Source: an uncultured Eubacteriales bacterium
Lineage (GTDB): Bacteria; Bacillota; Clostridia; Oscillospirales; Acutalibacteraceae
DNA: 34,288 nucleotides
Assembly (NCBI GenBank): GCA_900315195.1
Contig: OMYD01000009.1
Coordinates: 1-34,288 of the forward strand
Reading direction: 5' to 3'
Both the position numbers and the translations under genes were made by a program. The notes under the pieces were generated by a model. The model worked only from the letters and a program-made list of their open reading frames with translations. It ran no database searches and was not told the origin of the DNA. Below, piece by piece: positions 4,404 to 13,778 of the stretch. How positions within the stretch are numbered: position 1 is the stretch's first letter; each line of letters starts with the position of its first letter.

Positions 4404-6983
4404 TCATTCGCCCTGAATGTTGGCTATAGTGTTTTGAAGCAGCTGTTTTGTTGCCGCTTTGTCATCAGCCTTCCAGGAATCCTTGTAGAGTTGGGATCCG
4501 AGAGAACCCATTGGTGTCCAATAGTTGGCGGAAATGTTTAACTGCGGTACGGAAAATTCGGCTTGCACCATAAACGCCTGTATTTCGGGAATGTCTGCGG
4601 CCGCAGCCTGCGCCTTGATATTGGTTGGGATAAAGCCCAGCTGGTCAGCGCGTTGCTGCTGGCAGGTTTTGCCTGACAGATAATAGGCGAGCGCCTGCGC
4701 GGCAAGGGGGAATTTGCAGCGTGAATTTACGCCGAAAAGCTTTTGAACGTTAAAGCCGACAATTTGCTTTTTGGCGCCGTTTACGTTGATGGTGGGAAGC
4801 TTTGCGACACCAAAGTTGCTGCCGAGCGCGGACTTATCCGCAGCTAAGTTCCATGATCCGTCAATACCGGCGCCGACTTTGCCGTTCAAAAAACCTGTGG
4901 AGATGTGTGCGGGGTCCTGTGAGACTAATGTGCCCTTATAATCCTTCATAAGCTTAGCAAACGCCATAAGGGTAGCAACCGCTTCATCTTCGTCATAGTT
5001 GCTGAATTTTTGAGTGATGCCGTCCTCTTCAAAGCCGTCAATGGTCACACCGCCCGTAAACGCAAACATAGAACTGTAGAAGCCGTTTCCGCAGTCCATA
5101 ATAAACTGTTTGCCGGCCTTTTTACAGGCGGCAAGAACGCCCTCAATGGTGCTAGCGTCCGCGTCGGAGACAATGCTGCGGTTGTACACAAGCCCATAAC
5201 CGTTGTAGCTCTCCTCGGGAAAGGCGACAAGCTGACCGTAAACGCTGCCGACTTTTACAGATGAAGCATCGTTTTCCTGTGTAACAAATTTCGAAATGCT
5301 TTCTTTGACGGGTGCAAGTACCTCTTTACCGGTCAGCGCGCTGATTTGATCGCATGAGAAGGCGAAGATGTCCGCTGAACTGTCCGGGTCTGCTAAAATC
5401 ATCGCAGGGGCGTCTGCTTCACCAACTGCCGAAACTGTGATGCTTTTAAAAGAGGTGTAGGAATAATGTGACTGAAATTCCGCAATCTGCTGTTTTGTGA
5501 GTGAGACCTGTTTATCGGGAACCCATACCTTCAGTTCAATATTACTTTCATCACCGAAAACAGATTCGCTTAGAAAGTCGCCGTCCGTAGTGACAGCGGG
5601 GTCTGCCGCCTTGGATGTGCTGCTTTCACTTGCTCTGCTTGTTGTGGCGATGGTGGGATCCGTTTCGAATGAGGCAAGCTCACTTGCTGCGCTGACGCTG
5701 ACTGATTCTCCTTTTTTGCTGTTGTTTGCCGCAACCACGCCTATGACTACGCCCGCTGCAATGAGAACCGAGAGCACAGATGCAAGTATGGCTATCAGCT
5801 TTTTGGATAATCTCTTTTTAGGGGGATGCTGAGTTGCCGTATTTGGTTGCCGCATCACAGCTTGCTGTCTGTAGCCGGTGTTAACCGCGGGATCTACAGC
5901 CGGCTGTTTGGGCTGCTGCATCGGCTGCTGATGTGGCGACTGCTGACGGTTTTGGGAATAAGGCGGCATGATGTCCGCATCGGCTGCTATGGTTCGCTGT
6001 GAGTATGTCGCAGCTGAGGCGCGGCTTTGCTGCATAGCATTGATTAACGCGCCGATGTCGCGGAAGCGGTGCTGCTGATAGACCGCCATGCCGCACATAA
6101 GCGCCTGCTCCTGCTGTGCAGATATTTTGGCGCCGTATACCGACGGCGGTTTGAGCTCGTCGTTGAATATACGCTCCATTGATTCGTCGGGCGTGACGCC
6201 CGTAACGCACTTGTACATAGTTGCACATAGGGCATAGACATCTGTCCATGGGCCCTGATTGCCCTTGGAGCGGTACTGTTCCTCAGGGGCATAGCCAGGG
6301 CGCAGAACGATGGAAAGGCTGCGCTTGTCCTCGTAGTTTACCTCTCTTGACGCGCCGAAGTCCATCAGCTTGAGCGAACCGTCCTTCATAATCATGATAT
6401 TGTCCGGGCTTATGTCACGGTGAATTAAGCCGTTTTGATGAATTTGTTGAAGTGCGTAAAGTACAGGCAGCATTTTTTGAAACAGTTCATCAAACGCAAA
6501 TGGACCGTGTTCGTTAATATAGCGGCTGAGTGTGACGCCGTCGATGTATTCCATTACTATGTAAGCTGTGTTGTTGTCCTCAAAAAAATCACGCACATCC
6601 ACGATGCTCTTGTTTCCCGAGAACCTGCCCAGTACCCGCGCTTCCTGAATAAACTTGGTTTTTCCCTTTTCAAAAAAGCCTTTGTTGTTTTCGCCGGTAA
6701 TGGTAACCGTGGTGTTTGCCTCACAGTTGCGGCTGACATATCCGACCGGGAAAAACTCCTTGACGGCAATAATCATGTCTAAATTGAGGTCGCGGCCTAT
6801 GTAGGTGATGCCAAAGCCTCCCTCGCCCAGTACACGCCCGATGAGATAACGGTTGTTAAGCACTACGCCGCAGGGAAGGTGCTGCACGTTGTCATCATCC
6901 TTGGTGTTTCTGAACCCGCAATGCGGACAGATATCGCCCAATTCAAGTTTGTGCATACATTGATAACAATATTTATTTTCCAT
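4404..6983 (-). CDS. Membrane Ser/Thr protein kinase fused to an extracellular solute-binding-protein-like domain
   Basis: The 859-residue protein starts with a zinc-ribbon-like pair, CYQC and CPHC (C6, C9, C19, C22). The kinase domain (about 45-320) has the glycine loop LGEGGFG (52-58), Lys75 in AVKEF, the catalytic loop HRDISPDN (188-195), DFG (208-210) and APEEQY, so it should be active. A Gln/Pro-rich linker leads to a transmembrane helix at about 396-420. A Ser/Thr-rich spacer follows, then some 370 residues (about 480-859) resembling a type 1 extracellular solute-binding protein (VWVPDKQVSLTKQQIAEF, GVTIDGF, WNLAADKSALGSNFGVAKLP). The expected role is to sense an extracellular solute and phosphorylate cytoplasmic proteins. 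PrkC-type kinases carry PASTA repeats in this place; none are seen. GAGGTGG precedes the ATG, and the stop codon of the PP2C gene lies within 10 nt, so the two are one operon. Confidence 0.9.
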   Translation of the reverse strand: MENKYCYQCMHKLELGDICPHCGFRNTKDDDNVQHLPCGVVLNNRYLIGRVLGEGGFGITYIGRDLNLDMIIAVKEFFPVGYVSRNCEANTTVTITGENNKGFFEKGKTKFIQEARVLGRFSGNKSIVDVRDFFEDNNTAYIVMEYIDGVTLSRYINEHGPFAFDELFQKMLPVLYALQQIHQNGLIHRDISPDNIMIMKDGSLKLMDFGASREVNYEDKRSLSIVLRPGYAPEEQYRSKGNQGPWTDVYALCATMYKCVTGVTPDESMERIFNDELKPPSVYGAKISAQQEQALMCGMAVYQQHRFRDIGALINAMQQSRASAATYSQRTIAADADIMPPYSQNRQQSPHQQPMQQPKQPAVDPAVNTGYRQQAVMRQPNTATQHPPKKRLSKKLIAILASVLSVLIAAGVVIGVVAANNSKKGESVSVSAASELASFETDPTIATTSRASESSTSKAADPAVTTDGDFLSESVFGDESNIELKVWVPDKQVSLTKQQIAEFQSHYSYTSFKSITVSAVGEADAPAMILADPDSSADIFAFSCDQISALTGKEVLAPVKESISKFVTQENDASSVKVGSVYGQLVAFPEESYNGYGLVYNRSIVSDADASTIEGVLAACKKAGKQFIMDCGNGFYSSMFAFTGGVTIDGFEEDGITQKFSNYDEDEAVATLMAFAKLMKDYKGTLVSQDPAHISTGFLNGKVGAGIDGSWNLAADKSALGSNFGVAKLPTINVNGAKKQIVGFNVQKLFGVNSRCKFPLAAQALAYYLSGKTCQQQRADQLGFIPTNIKAQAAAADIPEIQAFMVQAEFSVPQLNISANYWTPMGSLGSQLYKDSWKADDKAATKQLLQNTIANIQGE

Positions 6984-6992
6984 ATTCCACCT

Positions 6993-7700
6993 CTATCGAA
7001 TCAGCAAAGTAATTGCCGAATGGTTGTCAAAATCTCCGTCGGGGTTGGCGTCGTGAGCAAGGCGCATGACGCGAAGCCAGTCCTTTGCCCTTCGCGAGAA
7101 AGATAGTGATTCGAGCATTTTGTCCTCCACAACGTTTTCCCAGAAGCCGTCGCTGCACAGCAGCAGAGCGTCGCCCGACTTGGGGGTGTATTCGGTGATA
7201 TCAGATTTTACGTTTTCTTTATTGCCCAGCACGCGCACCAGCTTGTTGCGGTCCTTGTGACCGCGGATTTCGTCGGCGGTAATCTCACCTGCCATCACCG
7301 AAATCTGCGAAACGCTGTGGTCGATGGACTGAAACAGTATCTCATTGTCACGGAACACATAAACGCGGGTGTCACCTACGGTAGCGATCAGCGCTTTGTC
7401 CCCGTCGAACCACACCACTGACACAGTGGTTTTCATTTCGGAGCCCCTTGCCCGTTCAAGCACCGCCAAGTTAGCCGTTTCAATCCCATGCTCCAGAACC
7501 GTTTTTGAAATTGGTTGGTGCCTTAGGGCTTTTAAAATACAGTTGACGGCTGTTTTGGAGGCGATTTCGCCGTTATCATGACCGCCCAGACCGTCCGCGC
7601 ATACGGCCACCAGAGCGGAGCCGTGTTTTTTTACAGCAACCGCGTCCTCGTTGTTGGTTCGGTCGCCTGTTGCCGAATAAAAGGAAACGTCAAATTTCAC
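6993..7700 (-). CDS. prpC: PP2C-family protein phosphatase (PrpC/Stp type)
   Basis: The 235-residue length is usual for bacterial PP2C phosphatases. Motifs are GDRTNNEDA (residues 12-20), the metal-binding Asp36 in CADGLGGHDNGE, VGDTRVYVFRD, and SDGFWENV near residue 180. The family removes phosphate from Ser/Thr residues with two Mn or Mg ions. The start is a GTG at 7700, preceded by GGGAGAAAAGAT; the overlapping ATG two bases upstream is out of frame. It is the first gene of a two-gene unit with the Ser/Thr kinase, the same phosphatase-kinase order as prpC-prkC in other Firmicutes, and should reverse the kinase's action. The symbol is by analogy only. Confidence 0.92.
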   Translation of the reverse strand: MKFDVSFYSATGDRTNNEDAVAVKKHGSALVAVCADGLGGHDNGEIASKTAVNCILKALRHQPISKTVLEHGIETANLAVLERARGSEMKTTVSVVWFDGDKALIATVGDTRVYVFRDNEILFQSIDHSVSQISVMAGEITADEIRGHKDRNKLVRVLGNKENVKSDITEYTPKSGDALLLCSDGFWENVVEDKMLESLSFSRRAKDWLRVMRLAHDANPDGDFDNHSAITLLIR

Positions 7701-9977: not shown

Positions 9978-12900
9978 TTATTTCAGCGGAGAAGGAAAAC
10001 CCGCCAGATAACGCTGTATACATGTAGCGTCGCTGATCGTTACAGTGCCGTCGCCGTCTGCATCCGCTGCTTTTTCGTTATAATCCTGAACTTTGAAGCC
10101 GCTAAGCTTTCTCTGAATACAGGTAACATCAAGAATGGTAACAGTACCGTCGCCGTCAACATCGCCGAGAAGCGGCTTTTCGTAGGGGCTTTCATACAAG
10201 CCTGAGCTTTCGGGCAGCAGGCAGAGCTTCCAGCCGACATTTTCGTCGTCTAAATAGTGATAGATGTAGTAAATCCCGTCGCGGGTTGTGACGCAGGAGT
10301 TGTAATGATCGAAGGAATCTGATATAGAGTCGTTAACTGAACAGTAAAGGGGTTCAATCTTATCCTTTTCCGTATTATAGAGGAACATATTTCCGCCGCC
10401 GTCTACTGACGCGCCGATAAATACCAGACCGTTCTTCACCTGTGTGATTGCGTCGGAATGATATAGTGTATCGTATGATTTATTGATTCTGCCGACATAC
10501 TTGTTGAGGTCGCTCTTTTCCCAGCTTATGCCGTCAAAGCACCATGCGCAATTAAGAATTCTCTCCTCGTCGGAAAGGAACGTATCGGGATCGGAACCGT
10601 ACATCACATATAATTTGTCGTTAATAGCCGCAAAATCAAAGGAGTCTATAATAACCGGGAGATCGTGCTCCTTTTCCCATAGATCTTTCGCGGGATCATA
10701 GCTGTACATCGGCAAGCTGTTTTCGGTCGCTTCAGAGCTGTAATAATCGCCTATACAATAAAACCTGCCGTTACAGAAACATGATTTAAATCTCGGTTCA
10801 AAGCCGTACAGGAGTGCTTCGGGATACTCCGACAGTTCAGTGAAGCGCCATTTATGATCGTCAGAGTTAAGATCGAAGGAAGCAAGATAAGCTTCTTGCT
10901 CATACCACCAGGATCCTTCATATTCTTCATCGGAGTCATCATTTTCCGGAGGTCTGTTGACGCCAATAAAAGTATATATCACACCGTTTTCATTTATAGG
11001 TATAGGCGCTTCGGAAAGGATACAGTAGAGATCATATTCGTTGTAAACAGTGTAGGTATCTTTGCCGCTCTCAACGAGATCTTTGCGAAATGCTTCATAA
11101 ATATTCGTGTTTTTATATGTGTTGAACTGATTGCCGTCGTAGCAGCAGACCTCGCCGGTGGTGTTATAAAAGCCGTACAGATTATTTCCGCCTGAGTCGG
11201 TCAGAAGATACGGCATAGTAAACACAGAATCATTGGGAATTATGTGTGTATTTATCTCAGTGAGTTTGTTCTGTCCCTTTACCAGGAAAAACTTTCCGCC
11301 GCCCTGCGTGCCGTTTTGGGCAGTCACGGTGAAAGCGGTGTAGGTTGAGAACAGACTCTTTGCGTTACTTATGACTAGCTTCTTACCGTCCCGGGTATAT
11401 TTTACGCTCATCTTATCGGGTAAGGGAGATTCTTTCGCGCCGTCGACAGCCAAGCGCCTGTAGGTCAGCTTGGAGCCTTTATACAGGTTTGAGCCGTACA
11501 GTGTAAGCGTTTCGTTTTCAACGTCGCACACCGCGTCGGTCAGTGAAGGGACTGCTTCGTTGATAAGCGACAGATCGACATATCCGCCTGTAGAGCATAG
11601 GTCTTTGAACGCGTCTGTCCGACGCACGCATGAGAAAAGCTTCGCACGGATTCTCTTTGCGTAATCGCCGCCCGATTCGCCCTTCTGCCTCGGATAGAGT
11701 GCATTAATCAGCGCGCCCGCGGCGCAGACGGCAGGCGTTGCCTGAGAGGTGCCGGAATTATAATCATATGAGGTGTTCGGCTCAATCTCGATATCCGGCT
11801 TAGAAATAGCGAGATTTTCGAGATACATTGAAGCGTCTTGCGAATCACCCATTTCACAATTAGCGTACAAACTTATTCCGAAACCGAGTTCCTTATCTTC
11901 AGCGTCCTCCGCGCTGAGCAGAAAATCCTTGCCGATGTTTGTGGTGATGTACTTCATCTTATCGTAATCTTGGTCGGTAACGGCAACCAGCATACCGTCT
12001 TCGGTCATTTGCAGACCATCTTCATCCTCGTAGATTTCGCCTCCGGAAAATATTCCAATTGAATCGTCGTCGTTCTTGATACACTCGGTACACATGGAAA
12101 AATACGTATTATTGCCGCCGGTGGTTTTTGGATTCTTCTCATATGGGAAATAAATAAAGTAGAGTTCGCCGTACTGCGCGTTTTTGACGGTGATTTTCAG
12201 CCTGCCTTCAGGCTCAACAGAAAGTTCAAGTTTTGCGTCGTCGGGGATCTCGTACTCGTCATCGTCATCAAGATATCTCTGCTTTACGAATTTAATTTCG
12301 CCGAATGACTTGATATCTTTGCCCGCTCTGCTTCCGACAGATGGGGTAATCTTGCCGTCAACGATCTTGGTTTTTGAGTTGAACTCGCCGTAATACTCGG
12401 TTGTAGCGTTCAGCAAATCCGCCGAATAAATGCCCGGCGTATAGTTGTCATAAGAAACGGATGAAAGGATATTCAACCCGGGGCCGAAAACGTCAACAGA
12501 GGTCTTTCCGTAATTGGAAAACTCAGTTGATTGTCCATAGTTATTTGCCGCGCCGACGGTGACCGCGTAGTCACTCTCGGAATTGGCAGGGTACACCGAC
12601 ATGCGGTCATTGTCATAGCATTCATTGCCTGCGGCAATATAAGATATCGCGCCTTCCTCACCGAGCAGGTTAATGAGATCATCATAAATTGTGCCGTATG
12701 AGAAGCCTGCCCATGAATTATTGATGCCTACAACATTAACGCCGCCCTGTATGGCTTTATAAATATAGTGATAGCAGCCGAAGGTCTGGTATACGGTCGA
12801 GGACATGCTGTTTCCGCTTCCGCTCAGCATTTTGAGCGCCATAATTTTGACGTTTGCGGCGGACGCGACACCCGCTATACCTTTAGCGTTATTTGCCTGA

Positions 12901-13778
12901 GCAGCTATGATGCCCGAGCAGTGGGTGCCGTGGCCGTGATCATCCGTCGGATCGTCGTCATTGTTGACGAAGTCATATCCGTGCTCACCCTTGAGGCCGA
13001 TATTACCCGGATTCGTCCACATTATTTCCTGAAGATCCTCGTGCTCGGCAAGCACTCCGGTATCGATGACAGCGACAACGGCTTCTTTTTCGCTGCCGCT
13101 AAGCTTAGACCACGCGAAGGACGCGTTGACGGATGGGATTGTTTCGGGATTGGCTCCGAAGTCTGAAACGCTCTCGCCGCCGGTATTCTCAGCCAACGGA
13201 GAGTTTACGTTATATAGATACCTGTTGTAAGGGTCATTGAGCGAATAGGGGGTAAAGCTCGTCGGATGAACGTAAAAATTCGGCTCGACCTTAGCAACAT
13301 TTTTGTTTTTGCCGAGCTTTTCGATTAATGCCGCGGTGTCGTATTTATCTGACGACACCAGCGCAACGGTAAGGTCATCAAACGAAGTGTTCGCCCCTGC
13401 GCCGACAGACGCGCCGCCTTTGGATTCCGCGGTATCATCGCCGAAAACAAGCGTATCTTCCAGCACAAAATCGTTTCCGAGGCTGTTTTTAAGAATTTTT
13501 TGCTCCTCGTCCGCGGCGCCGAGAGCCTCACGCTCTGATGAGGACGCGTCCATTGTGTTGCCGAAGTTCGCGCCGACAGACTCAAGGTCGTCCTTTTTCG
13601 GGACGGTTTTTGTATTGATCGCGCTGTCCCTGAACTGTACAATTACCTGACCCGGAGCGTAGGTGCCCTCAACAAGCTCGATGTTCGGCTTTGTTTCGGC
13701 GGCTGATACCGACAACGCGAGAGTTGCGGTTAACGCGGTCAGGATTACTGCCAGAAGTACGGAGATGTACTTTTTCAT
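9978..13778 (-). CDS. Secreted subtilisin-like (S8) protease with catalytic-domain insertion, kelch-like region and type I dockerin
   Basis: The 1266-residue protein starts with a signal peptide (MKKYISVLLAVILTALTATL, cleavage near AA-ET at about 27). A fervidolysin-like prodomain follows (YAPGQVIVQFRDSA, about 35-170). The catalytic triad is complete: Asp239 in VAVIDTGV, His283 in DDHGHGTHCSG and Ser678 in SGTSQATP, with the oxyanion Asn385 in AAGNE. Between about 441 and 665, just before the Ser loop, lie some 220 extra residues that ordinary subtilases lack. After the catalytic domain come a TIG-like stretch (about 742-840) and a beta-rich kelch-like region (about 860-1190; YSYDPAKDLWEKEHDLP). 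The end (1202-1266) is a dockerin with two calcium loops, DVDGDGTVTILD and DADGDGTVTISD, each followed by TCIQR. AGGAGG precedes the ATG. The enzyme is expected to be secreted and docked to a cohesin scaffold. Confidence 0.93.
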   Translation of the reverse strand: MKKYISVLLAVILTALTATLALSVSAAETKPNIELVEGTYAPGQVIVQFRDSAINTKTVPKKDDLESVGANFGNTMDASSSEREALGAADEEQKILKNSLGNDFVLEDTLVFGDDTAESKGGASVGAGANTSFDDLTVALVSSDKYDTAALIEKLGKNKNVAKVEPNFYVHPTSFTPYSLNDPYNRYLYNVNSPLAENTGGESVSDFGANPETIPSVNASFAWSKLSGSEKEAVVAVIDTGVLAEHEDLQEIMWTNPGNIGLKGEHGYDFVNNDDDPTDDHGHGTHCSGIIAAQANNAKGIAGVASAANVKIMALKMLSGSGNSMSSTVYQTFGCYHYIYKAIQGGVNVVGINNSWAGFSYGTIYDDLINLLGEEGAISYIAAGNECYDNDRMSVYPANSESDYAVTVGAANNYGQSTEFSNYGKTSVDVFGPGLNILSSVSYDNYTPGIYSADLLNATTEYYGEFNSKTKIVDGKITPSVGSRAGKDIKSFGEIKFVKQRYLDDDDEYEIPDDAKLELSVEPEGRLKITVKNAQYGELYFIYFPYEKNPKTTGGNNTYFSMCTECIKNDDDSIGIFSGGEIYEDEDGLQMTEDGMLVAVTDQDYDKMKYITTNIGKDFLLSAEDAEDKELGFGISLYANCEMGDSQDASMYLENLAISKPDIEIEPNTSYDYNSGTSQATPAVCAAGALINALYPRQKGESGGDYAKRIRAKLFSCVRRTDAFKDLCSTGGYVDLSLINEAVPSLTDAVCDVENETLTLYGSNLYKGSKLTYRRLAVDGAKESPLPDKMSVKYTRDGKKLVISNAKSLFSTYTAFTVTAQNGTQGGGKFFLVKGQNKLTEINTHIIPNDSVFTMPYLLTDSGGNNLYGFYNTTGEVCCYDGNQFNTYKNTNIYEAFRKDLVESGKDTYTVYNEYDLYCILSEAPIPINENGVIYTFIGVNRPPENDDSDEEYEGSWWYEQEAYLASFDLNSDDHKWRFTELSEYPEALLYGFEPRFKSCFCNGRFYCIGDYYSSEATENSLPMYSYDPAKDLWEKEHDLPVIIDSFDFAAINDKLYVMYGSDPDTFLSDEERILNCAWCFDGISWEKSDLNKYVGRINKSYDTLYHSDAITQVKNGLVFIGASVDGGGNMFLYNTEKDKIEPLYCSVNDSISDSFDHYNSCVTTRDGIYYIYHYLDDENVGWKLCLLPESSGLYESPYEKPLLGDVDGDGTVTILDVTCIQRKLSGFKVQDYNEKAADADGDGTVTISDATCIQRYLAGFPSPLK

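Follow-up and report, generated by a model that had tools for sequence, protein, structure and literature searches.

A predicted Ser/Thr kinase joined to a MalE-type solute-binding domain in an uncultured Eubacteriales bacterium, and its relatives

Introduction

The stimuli that activate bacterial Ser/Thr kinases are called an outstanding question in a passage of one published article (PMC6069109). In a 34,288-nt stretch of DNA from an uncultured Eubacteriales bacterium (contig OMYD01000009.1, positions 1 to 34,288; hereafter the window), a first-pass annotation had singled out a gene whose product was proposed to be a Ser/Thr kinase with a fused ABC-type solute-binding protein (SBP) as its external sensor. 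Such a gene raises the questions of whether the two halves truly belong together, which class of ligand the external half is likely to bind, and whether the combination is a functional receptor or a passing product of domain shuffling.

Gene product and the adjoining phosphatase gene

The gene lies at 4404-6983 on the minus strand, starts with ATG and encodes a protein of 859 aa. The features assigned to it and to its upstream neighbor are as follows (window coordinates):

4404..6983, minus strand: whole gene, zinc ribbon - Ser/Thr kinase - membrane helix - solute-binding protein, 859 aa
4407..5552, minus strand: MalE-type solute-binding domain, aa 478-859 (Pfam match 515-795; start by eye)
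5553..5717, minus strand: external stalk, Ser/Thr-rich, aa 423-477 (sequence; limits by eye)
5718..5813, minus strand: membrane helix region, aa 391-422 (hydropathy)
6183..6842, minus strand: Pkinase-matched kinase domain, aa 48-267, with K75, HRD 188-190 and DFG 208-210 (Pfam and motifs)
6918..6968, minus strand: zinc-ribbon cysteine pairs, aa 6-22 (motif; Pfam DZR below cut-off)
6987..6992, minus strand: Shine-Dalgarno-like AGGTGG between the PP2C stop and the kinase ATG (read from the sequence)
6993..7700, minus strand: PP2C-type phosphatase, 235 aa (ORF and Pfam)

The kinase domain (aa 48-267) was matched by Pfam Pkinase over its cut-off (E 4.3e-34), and the catalytic residues named at first pass (Lys75, HRD at 188-190, DFG at 208-210) were located as given, with intact motifs that also included GEGGFGIT at 53-60 and APEE at 232-235. 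Judged by the Hanks-type motif list (Gly loop, VAIK Lys, HRD, DFG and APE), the protein belongs with these kinases and is predicted to be active. A hydropathy scan, at the less strict of its two thresholds, found a single hydrophobic stretch (391-422), in agreement with the one membrane helix noted previously, and the kinase would presumably face the cytoplasm. The zinc-ribbon cysteines were identified by motif scan as C6-x2-C9 and C19-x2-C22, with a weak Pfam DZR match (E 0.012, 16.2 bits versus a cut-off of 27.3). The protein is not a member of the PASTA-kinase family NF033483 of NCBIfam, for which it scored 186.7 bits versus a cut-off of 450, and no PASTA repeat was matched by Pfam at E 0.1. 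An artificial joining of two genes was considered and ruled out because genome G073 holds an orthologue with the identical architecture and PP2C gene.

The neighboring PP2C gene named in the first-pass annotation was found directly upstream on the same strand, its stop 9 nt from the kinase ATG, and the two genes are probably co-transcribed. Its product was matched by Pfam PP2C_2 over the cut-off (E 9e-18) and fell short of the Stp1/IreP equivalog family NF033484 of NCBIfam (162.7 bits versus 230). The characteristic PP2C motifs NNED, ADGLGGHD, GDTR, SDGF and DN appeared intact by eye. Corresponding genes precede the related genes in G073 (74% identical to that of the window) and G132 (52%), and a PP2C that is 45% identical lies before a related kinase in G066, whereas BLAST with the window PP2C found none in the stretches fetched around the fused genes of G093, G126 and G524. 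Between the window and G073, aligned identity was 82% for the kinase part, 49% for linker and helix, and 63% for the SBP, and the dN/dS pairs, in which dS is near saturation, were 0.11/1.67 for the kinase, 0.51/1.81 for the linker, 0.29/1.94 for the SBP and 0.19/1.13 for the PP2C. Since dN was below dS throughout, all of the compared parts appear to be under purifying selection.

External solute-binding domain

The earlier proposal that the external part resembles an ABC solute-binding protein was borne out by Pfam SBP_bac_8, which matched aa 515-795 over its cut-off (E 2.1e-21), and by comparison of residues 430-859 with solved structures, among which 4ua8 (E 1e-23) and the MalE1 structure 5mk9 (E 7.7e-23) ranked first. 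We take 4ua8 to be EUR_31480 of E. rectale. A profile built from three sequences (the window domain and two relatives) matched 13 structures, with 5mk9 at E 3.9e-38, 4ua8 at E 5.7e-38, the named maltose binders 1urd, 6dts, 2fnc and 2xd2, and the generically named 9kha, 2zyk and 4hs7 among them. By family, then, the external part is assigned as a MalE-type carbohydrate SBP, and its predicted two-lobed fold follows from homology; an AlphaFold2 model of aa 430-859 from a three-sequence alignment with two relatives had a mean pLDDT of 41.5. The first-pass annotation had left the ligand as a sugar or a peptide. A sugar is now favored and a peptide disfavored, because the informatively named solved relatives (E 1e-5 or better) bind maltose, maltodextrin or carbohydrate. 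A passage of PMC8288039 lists EUR_31480 with transporters of malto-oligosaccharides whose DP is below 8.

To describe how well the binding domain has been kept, we used 77 columns conserved in 33 stand-alone SBPs, which were taken as transporter-type and for some of which the operon was seen. The window domain keeps 69 of the 77 positions and 15 of 17 aromatics, compared with 73 positions in G073, 73 in G093, 69 in G126, 76 in G524, 71 in G132 and 67 in G145. Its retention (90%) is set against a median of 98.7% for the 33 stand-alone SBPs, each scored versus the rest (lowest 65/88). The eight changes are Q520V, V539I, T591E, C638S, G746V, Y747Q, W784F and G785I; a shift in specificity may follow from the four that fall at 746-747 and 784-785. 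In the alignments, W711 and W822 each coincide with a Trp of 5mk9 and of 4ua8, and tryptophans of this kind stack against the sugar rings in maltose-binding proteins.

Paralogues and genomic context

The window protein matched 14 places in its own genome, itself included. Two of these are stand-alone SBPs with lipoprotein-like starts: one (at locus L011) is 54% identical to the window domain and lies beside MalF, MalG and alpha-amylase, and the other (L013) is 42% identical, keeps 53 of the 77 conserved sites, and lies in a fetched stretch of 13.9 kb that holds no ORF like malF or malG. Eight of the 11 other, kinase-side matches are zinc-ribbon kinases, and no SBP was found among the scanned external parts of these paralogues. 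Four zinc-ribbon kinases stand in tandem at 3199-11760 of L009 (contig C63), and the external parts of three of these share 25-34% identity; the row adjoins a PASTA+YARHG membrane protein. From this survey, the zinc ribbon is best read as the mark of a paralogous kinase family in which various external parts occur, the SBP among them, and not as the further addition to the window protein that was suggested initially. Five FHA matches were found on four contigs of the genome, which shows that it has phosphothreonine readers, although none of them is linked to the window kinase.

A separate arrangement was observed at L013 (4619-7567), L059 and L060, where an orphan MalE-like SBP whose conserved sites are eroded comes after a sigma-factor-like protein (by eye; no Pfam match at 1e-3) with a membrane helix; at L013 and L059 a zinc-ribbon membrane protein also follows the sigma-factor-like protein.

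No starch-degradation or malF/malG-like gene was detected among 25 ORFs of the window that were scanned with Pfam or NCBIfam, and BLAST of the window with malF, malG and amylase returned no relative. The neighbors that were matched to families include a two-component pair, an ABC ATPase, an HTH/zinc-ribbon regulator, a subtilase with dockerin, glycosyltransferases, a pyruvate formate-lyase and a heparinase-like protein, none of which indicates maltodextrin use. The subtilase (9978-13778; 1266 aa) has a Peptidase_S8 match (E 5.8e-34), a C-terminal type I dockerin (E 2.2e-12) and a similarity to type VII mycosin that is below the cut-off (E 1.5e-27); its dockerin suggests that the source genome makes cohesin-dockerin complexes.

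Distribution of the fused genes

An SBP match was present in 152 of 161 genomes of the genus. Among the matches listed, which are the best ones, so that weaker fusions may be missed, an SBP-fused kinase was found in at least four genomes (the window, G073, G093 and G126), and nine places lay in open frames >550 aa: four kinase fusions, two proteins with zinc ribbon, helix and SBP without a complete kinase, and three SBPs with extra repeats. The fused gene of G126 has a frame broken near its start. In G132 (L053, 5552-7501) the zinc ribbon, an N-lobe remnant, the helix, the SBP and the PP2C are kept and the kinase C-lobe is gone; three neighbors shared with G073 (78%, 81% and 63% identical) tie this locus to that of G073, rather than a supported SBP branch. 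In G145 a zinc-ribbon-membrane-SBP protein is encoded close to malEFG and to an alpha-amylase gene, separated from them by spoIIE. The 787-aa gene beside that protein was SpoIIE by Pfam and was dropped as a candidate for a specific partner.

Beyond the genus, 75 of 398 genomes in the family sample had a match, with one further fusion, that of G524, in another genus. Within the genus of G524, 21 of 22 genomes had a match, including the full fusion of G524 and, in G941, a fusion whose SBP stops early. In the class sample, 37 of 391 genomes had a match, and the longest frame other than that of the window was 571 aa (G863). A scan of viral contigs found no further relatives, and one of genome contigs found two, both stand-alone SBPs. 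The same fusion was thus found in relatives, as the first-pass annotation had proposed to survey, and among the matches listed it is rare. No malF, malG or amylase relative was identified by BLAST in the stretches fetched around the fused genes of G093, G126 and G524, nor a malF- or malG-like ORF in that of G073.

SBPs of this family were also found with signal-like starts, extra repeats and no kinase in G075, G126 and G133. Such SBPs lie at L055 (4541-6913), L056 (5515-7799) and L048 (5344-7764); the extra parts were matched by GH85_C in L055 and L056 and by fn3 in L056, and by no family over the cut-off in L048. At L062 (4835-6244, G077) a MalE-like SBP with a signal-like start (SBP_bac_8 5.1e-15) carries a type I dockerin (Dockerin_1 E 1e-5) and might be part of an amylosome-like complex.

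Phylogeny of kinases and solute-binding domains

Kinase identity to the window was 82% for G073, 38% for G524 and 28% for G093, and an SBP-free paralogue from the same genome (in L009) was 52% identical. In a tree of 54 kinases, from which duplicates and spans <200 aa (the G132 remnant among them) were omitted, the five SBP-fused kinases fell in three places (window and G073; G093 and G126; G524), and the starred branches force three changes, with the warning that long branches meet at the deep joins beside the G093/G126 and G524 groups. The nearest relative of the window pair is the kinase of G085 (support 96/91), the external part of which carries two PASTA repeats, and the next nearest is that of G066 (80/95, not starred), with an unassigned external part and a PP2C gene directly upstream. 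This G066 locus (L116, 1392-5778) runs from the PP2C and the zinc-ribbon kinase through a short gene, STAS-like by eye, to one for a TIR_2+FHA protein.

The SBP tree (47 rows, versus 42 in an earlier version) was built without spans <330 aa, which removed both L058 pieces, and without rows with an identical core. It grouped the window with G073 (99/95) and G093 with G126 (98/91), gave the window domain an end branch of 0.45, and paired the receptor domain of G524 with the MalE of that genome's own transporter as sisters (100/95); the two are 82.6% identical (327/396 columns). A single origin of all five fused SBPs was rejected (one clade, AU p 2.1e-6), whereas one clade for the window, G073, G093 and G126 was not (AU p 0.318). 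On the SBP data the receptor domain therefore arose at least twice, and the kinases have three placements. In view of these placements, the likeness of G524 to its MalE, and the non-SBP external parts on the closest kinase relatives, the kinases exchange sensors and have recruited a maltodextrin-type SBP repeatedly.

Discussion

The best reading of the window gene, and one that we consider somewhat more probable than an even chance, is a one-protein oligosaccharide receptor kinase with ligand control and a coupled phosphatase. This reading is strengthened by the recurrence of the fusion and by G524, whose domain copies its own transporter MalE. In the proposed mechanism, the MalE-related external domain would close on a malto-oligosaccharide or a close alpha-glucan, and closure would pass via the stalk and the single helix to the cytoplasmic Ser/Thr kinase, altering how active it is or how it pairs. 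The PP2C of the adjoining upstream gene would remove the phosphates, and phosphothreonine readers, such as the FHA proteins of the same genome, may be among the outputs.

Other explanations were weighed against the same data. That the receptor works but its domain has drifted to an oligosaccharide other than maltodextrin is suggested by the eight changes among the 77 conserved positions, four of them at 746-747 and 784-785, by the sharing of Y747Q with G073 and by the end branch of 0.45; however, 5mk9 and 4ua8 likewise have no Tyr at 747 and no Trp at 784, the GFIP of the window corresponds to GQIP in 5mk9, and both aligned Trp, W711 and W822, are retained, so that we regard such a drift as unlikely. 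It is decidedly improbable, in our judgment, that the domain senses transport and not free sugar, docking on MalFG like MalE and reporting the state of the permease or competing for it. The 83% identity of the G524 domain to a transporter MalE and the position of the G145 protein near malEFG and an alpha-amylase gene would fit such docking, but no malF/malG-like ORF was found in the window or in the stretches fetched for G073, G093, G126 and G524, and in G145 spoIIE stands between.

The remaining alternatives deny the kinase a ligand or the fusion a function. SBPs of the same family occur in proteins with signal-like N-termini and repeats, and with dockerin, which indicates that the family has uses beyond transporters that involve no kinase, and the external domain could merely anchor the kinase or the cell to starch, leaving the kinase without ligand control. 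We hold this to be quite improbable, given that kinase, PP2C and SBP stay together in the window and G073 with dN below dS, and that fusion to kinases recurs. Transient domain shuffling without a selected function would account for the rarity of the fusion and for the damaged relatives in G132, G126 and G941, yet dN was below dS in all parts compared between the window and G073, the motifs are intact and the kinase tree gives three placements; this appears very unlikely.

The suggestion that the system was undescribed did not survive comparison with the literature. A kinase and an extracellular SBP in one chain were listed in 2005 for Streptomyces coelicolor (gi 21223285), along with a fusion of a kinase and an ANF receptor in Nostoc, in a portion of the article by Krupa and Srinivasan (PMC1262709). 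As far as that portion describes it, the actinomycete protein shares the single chain with the window protein and differs in its domain of Glu/Gln type, where the window protein has a MalE-like carbohydrate type, zinc-ribbon cysteines and an upstream PP2C gene. In GlnH-GlnX-PknG of mycobacteria, an SBP is proposed to inform a Ser/Thr kinase of nutrient status (PMC6069109, in part); there SBP, membrane protein and kinase are separate and the ligands are amino acids, whereas the window protein is one chain with its own helix and a sugar-type SBP. The PASTA kinases PrkC/Stk1/PknB with PrpC/Stp1, as outlined in a section of PMC6213207, resemble the window system in having the kinase inside, one helix, an outer sensor and an adjoining phosphatase gene, but have PASTA in place of the solute-binding protein. 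The MalE proteins of maltodextrin transporters (4ua8, 5mk9) are homologous to the window domain over most of its length; unlike them, it is joined to a helix and kinase, and malF/malG-like genes are not beside it. No MalE-type kinase fusion was found among the titles and abstract openings that were listed, all of open-licence articles, preprints excluded. As such, the kinase-SBP fusion itself is already known, and the new part is the MalE-type version with its repeated recruitment.

More broadly, the large zinc-ribbon and related kinase families of this bacterial family may serve as a platform for sensor exchange, in which cells repeatedly fuse to a kinase a copy of the SBP that serves their maltodextrin transporter, and so obtain a receptor and a transporter that are matched to one and the same sugar. 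We offer this tentatively, as a plausible idea that falls somewhat short of an even chance; such pairs would be a phosphorylation-based counterpart of sugar-sensing histidine kinases. For the window kinase the sequence allows a guess at the likely class of ligand, and G524, whose receptor domain and MalE are 83% identical, is a good test case. If the reading as a receptor is true, it suggests how such bacteria may sense starch fragments outside the cell.
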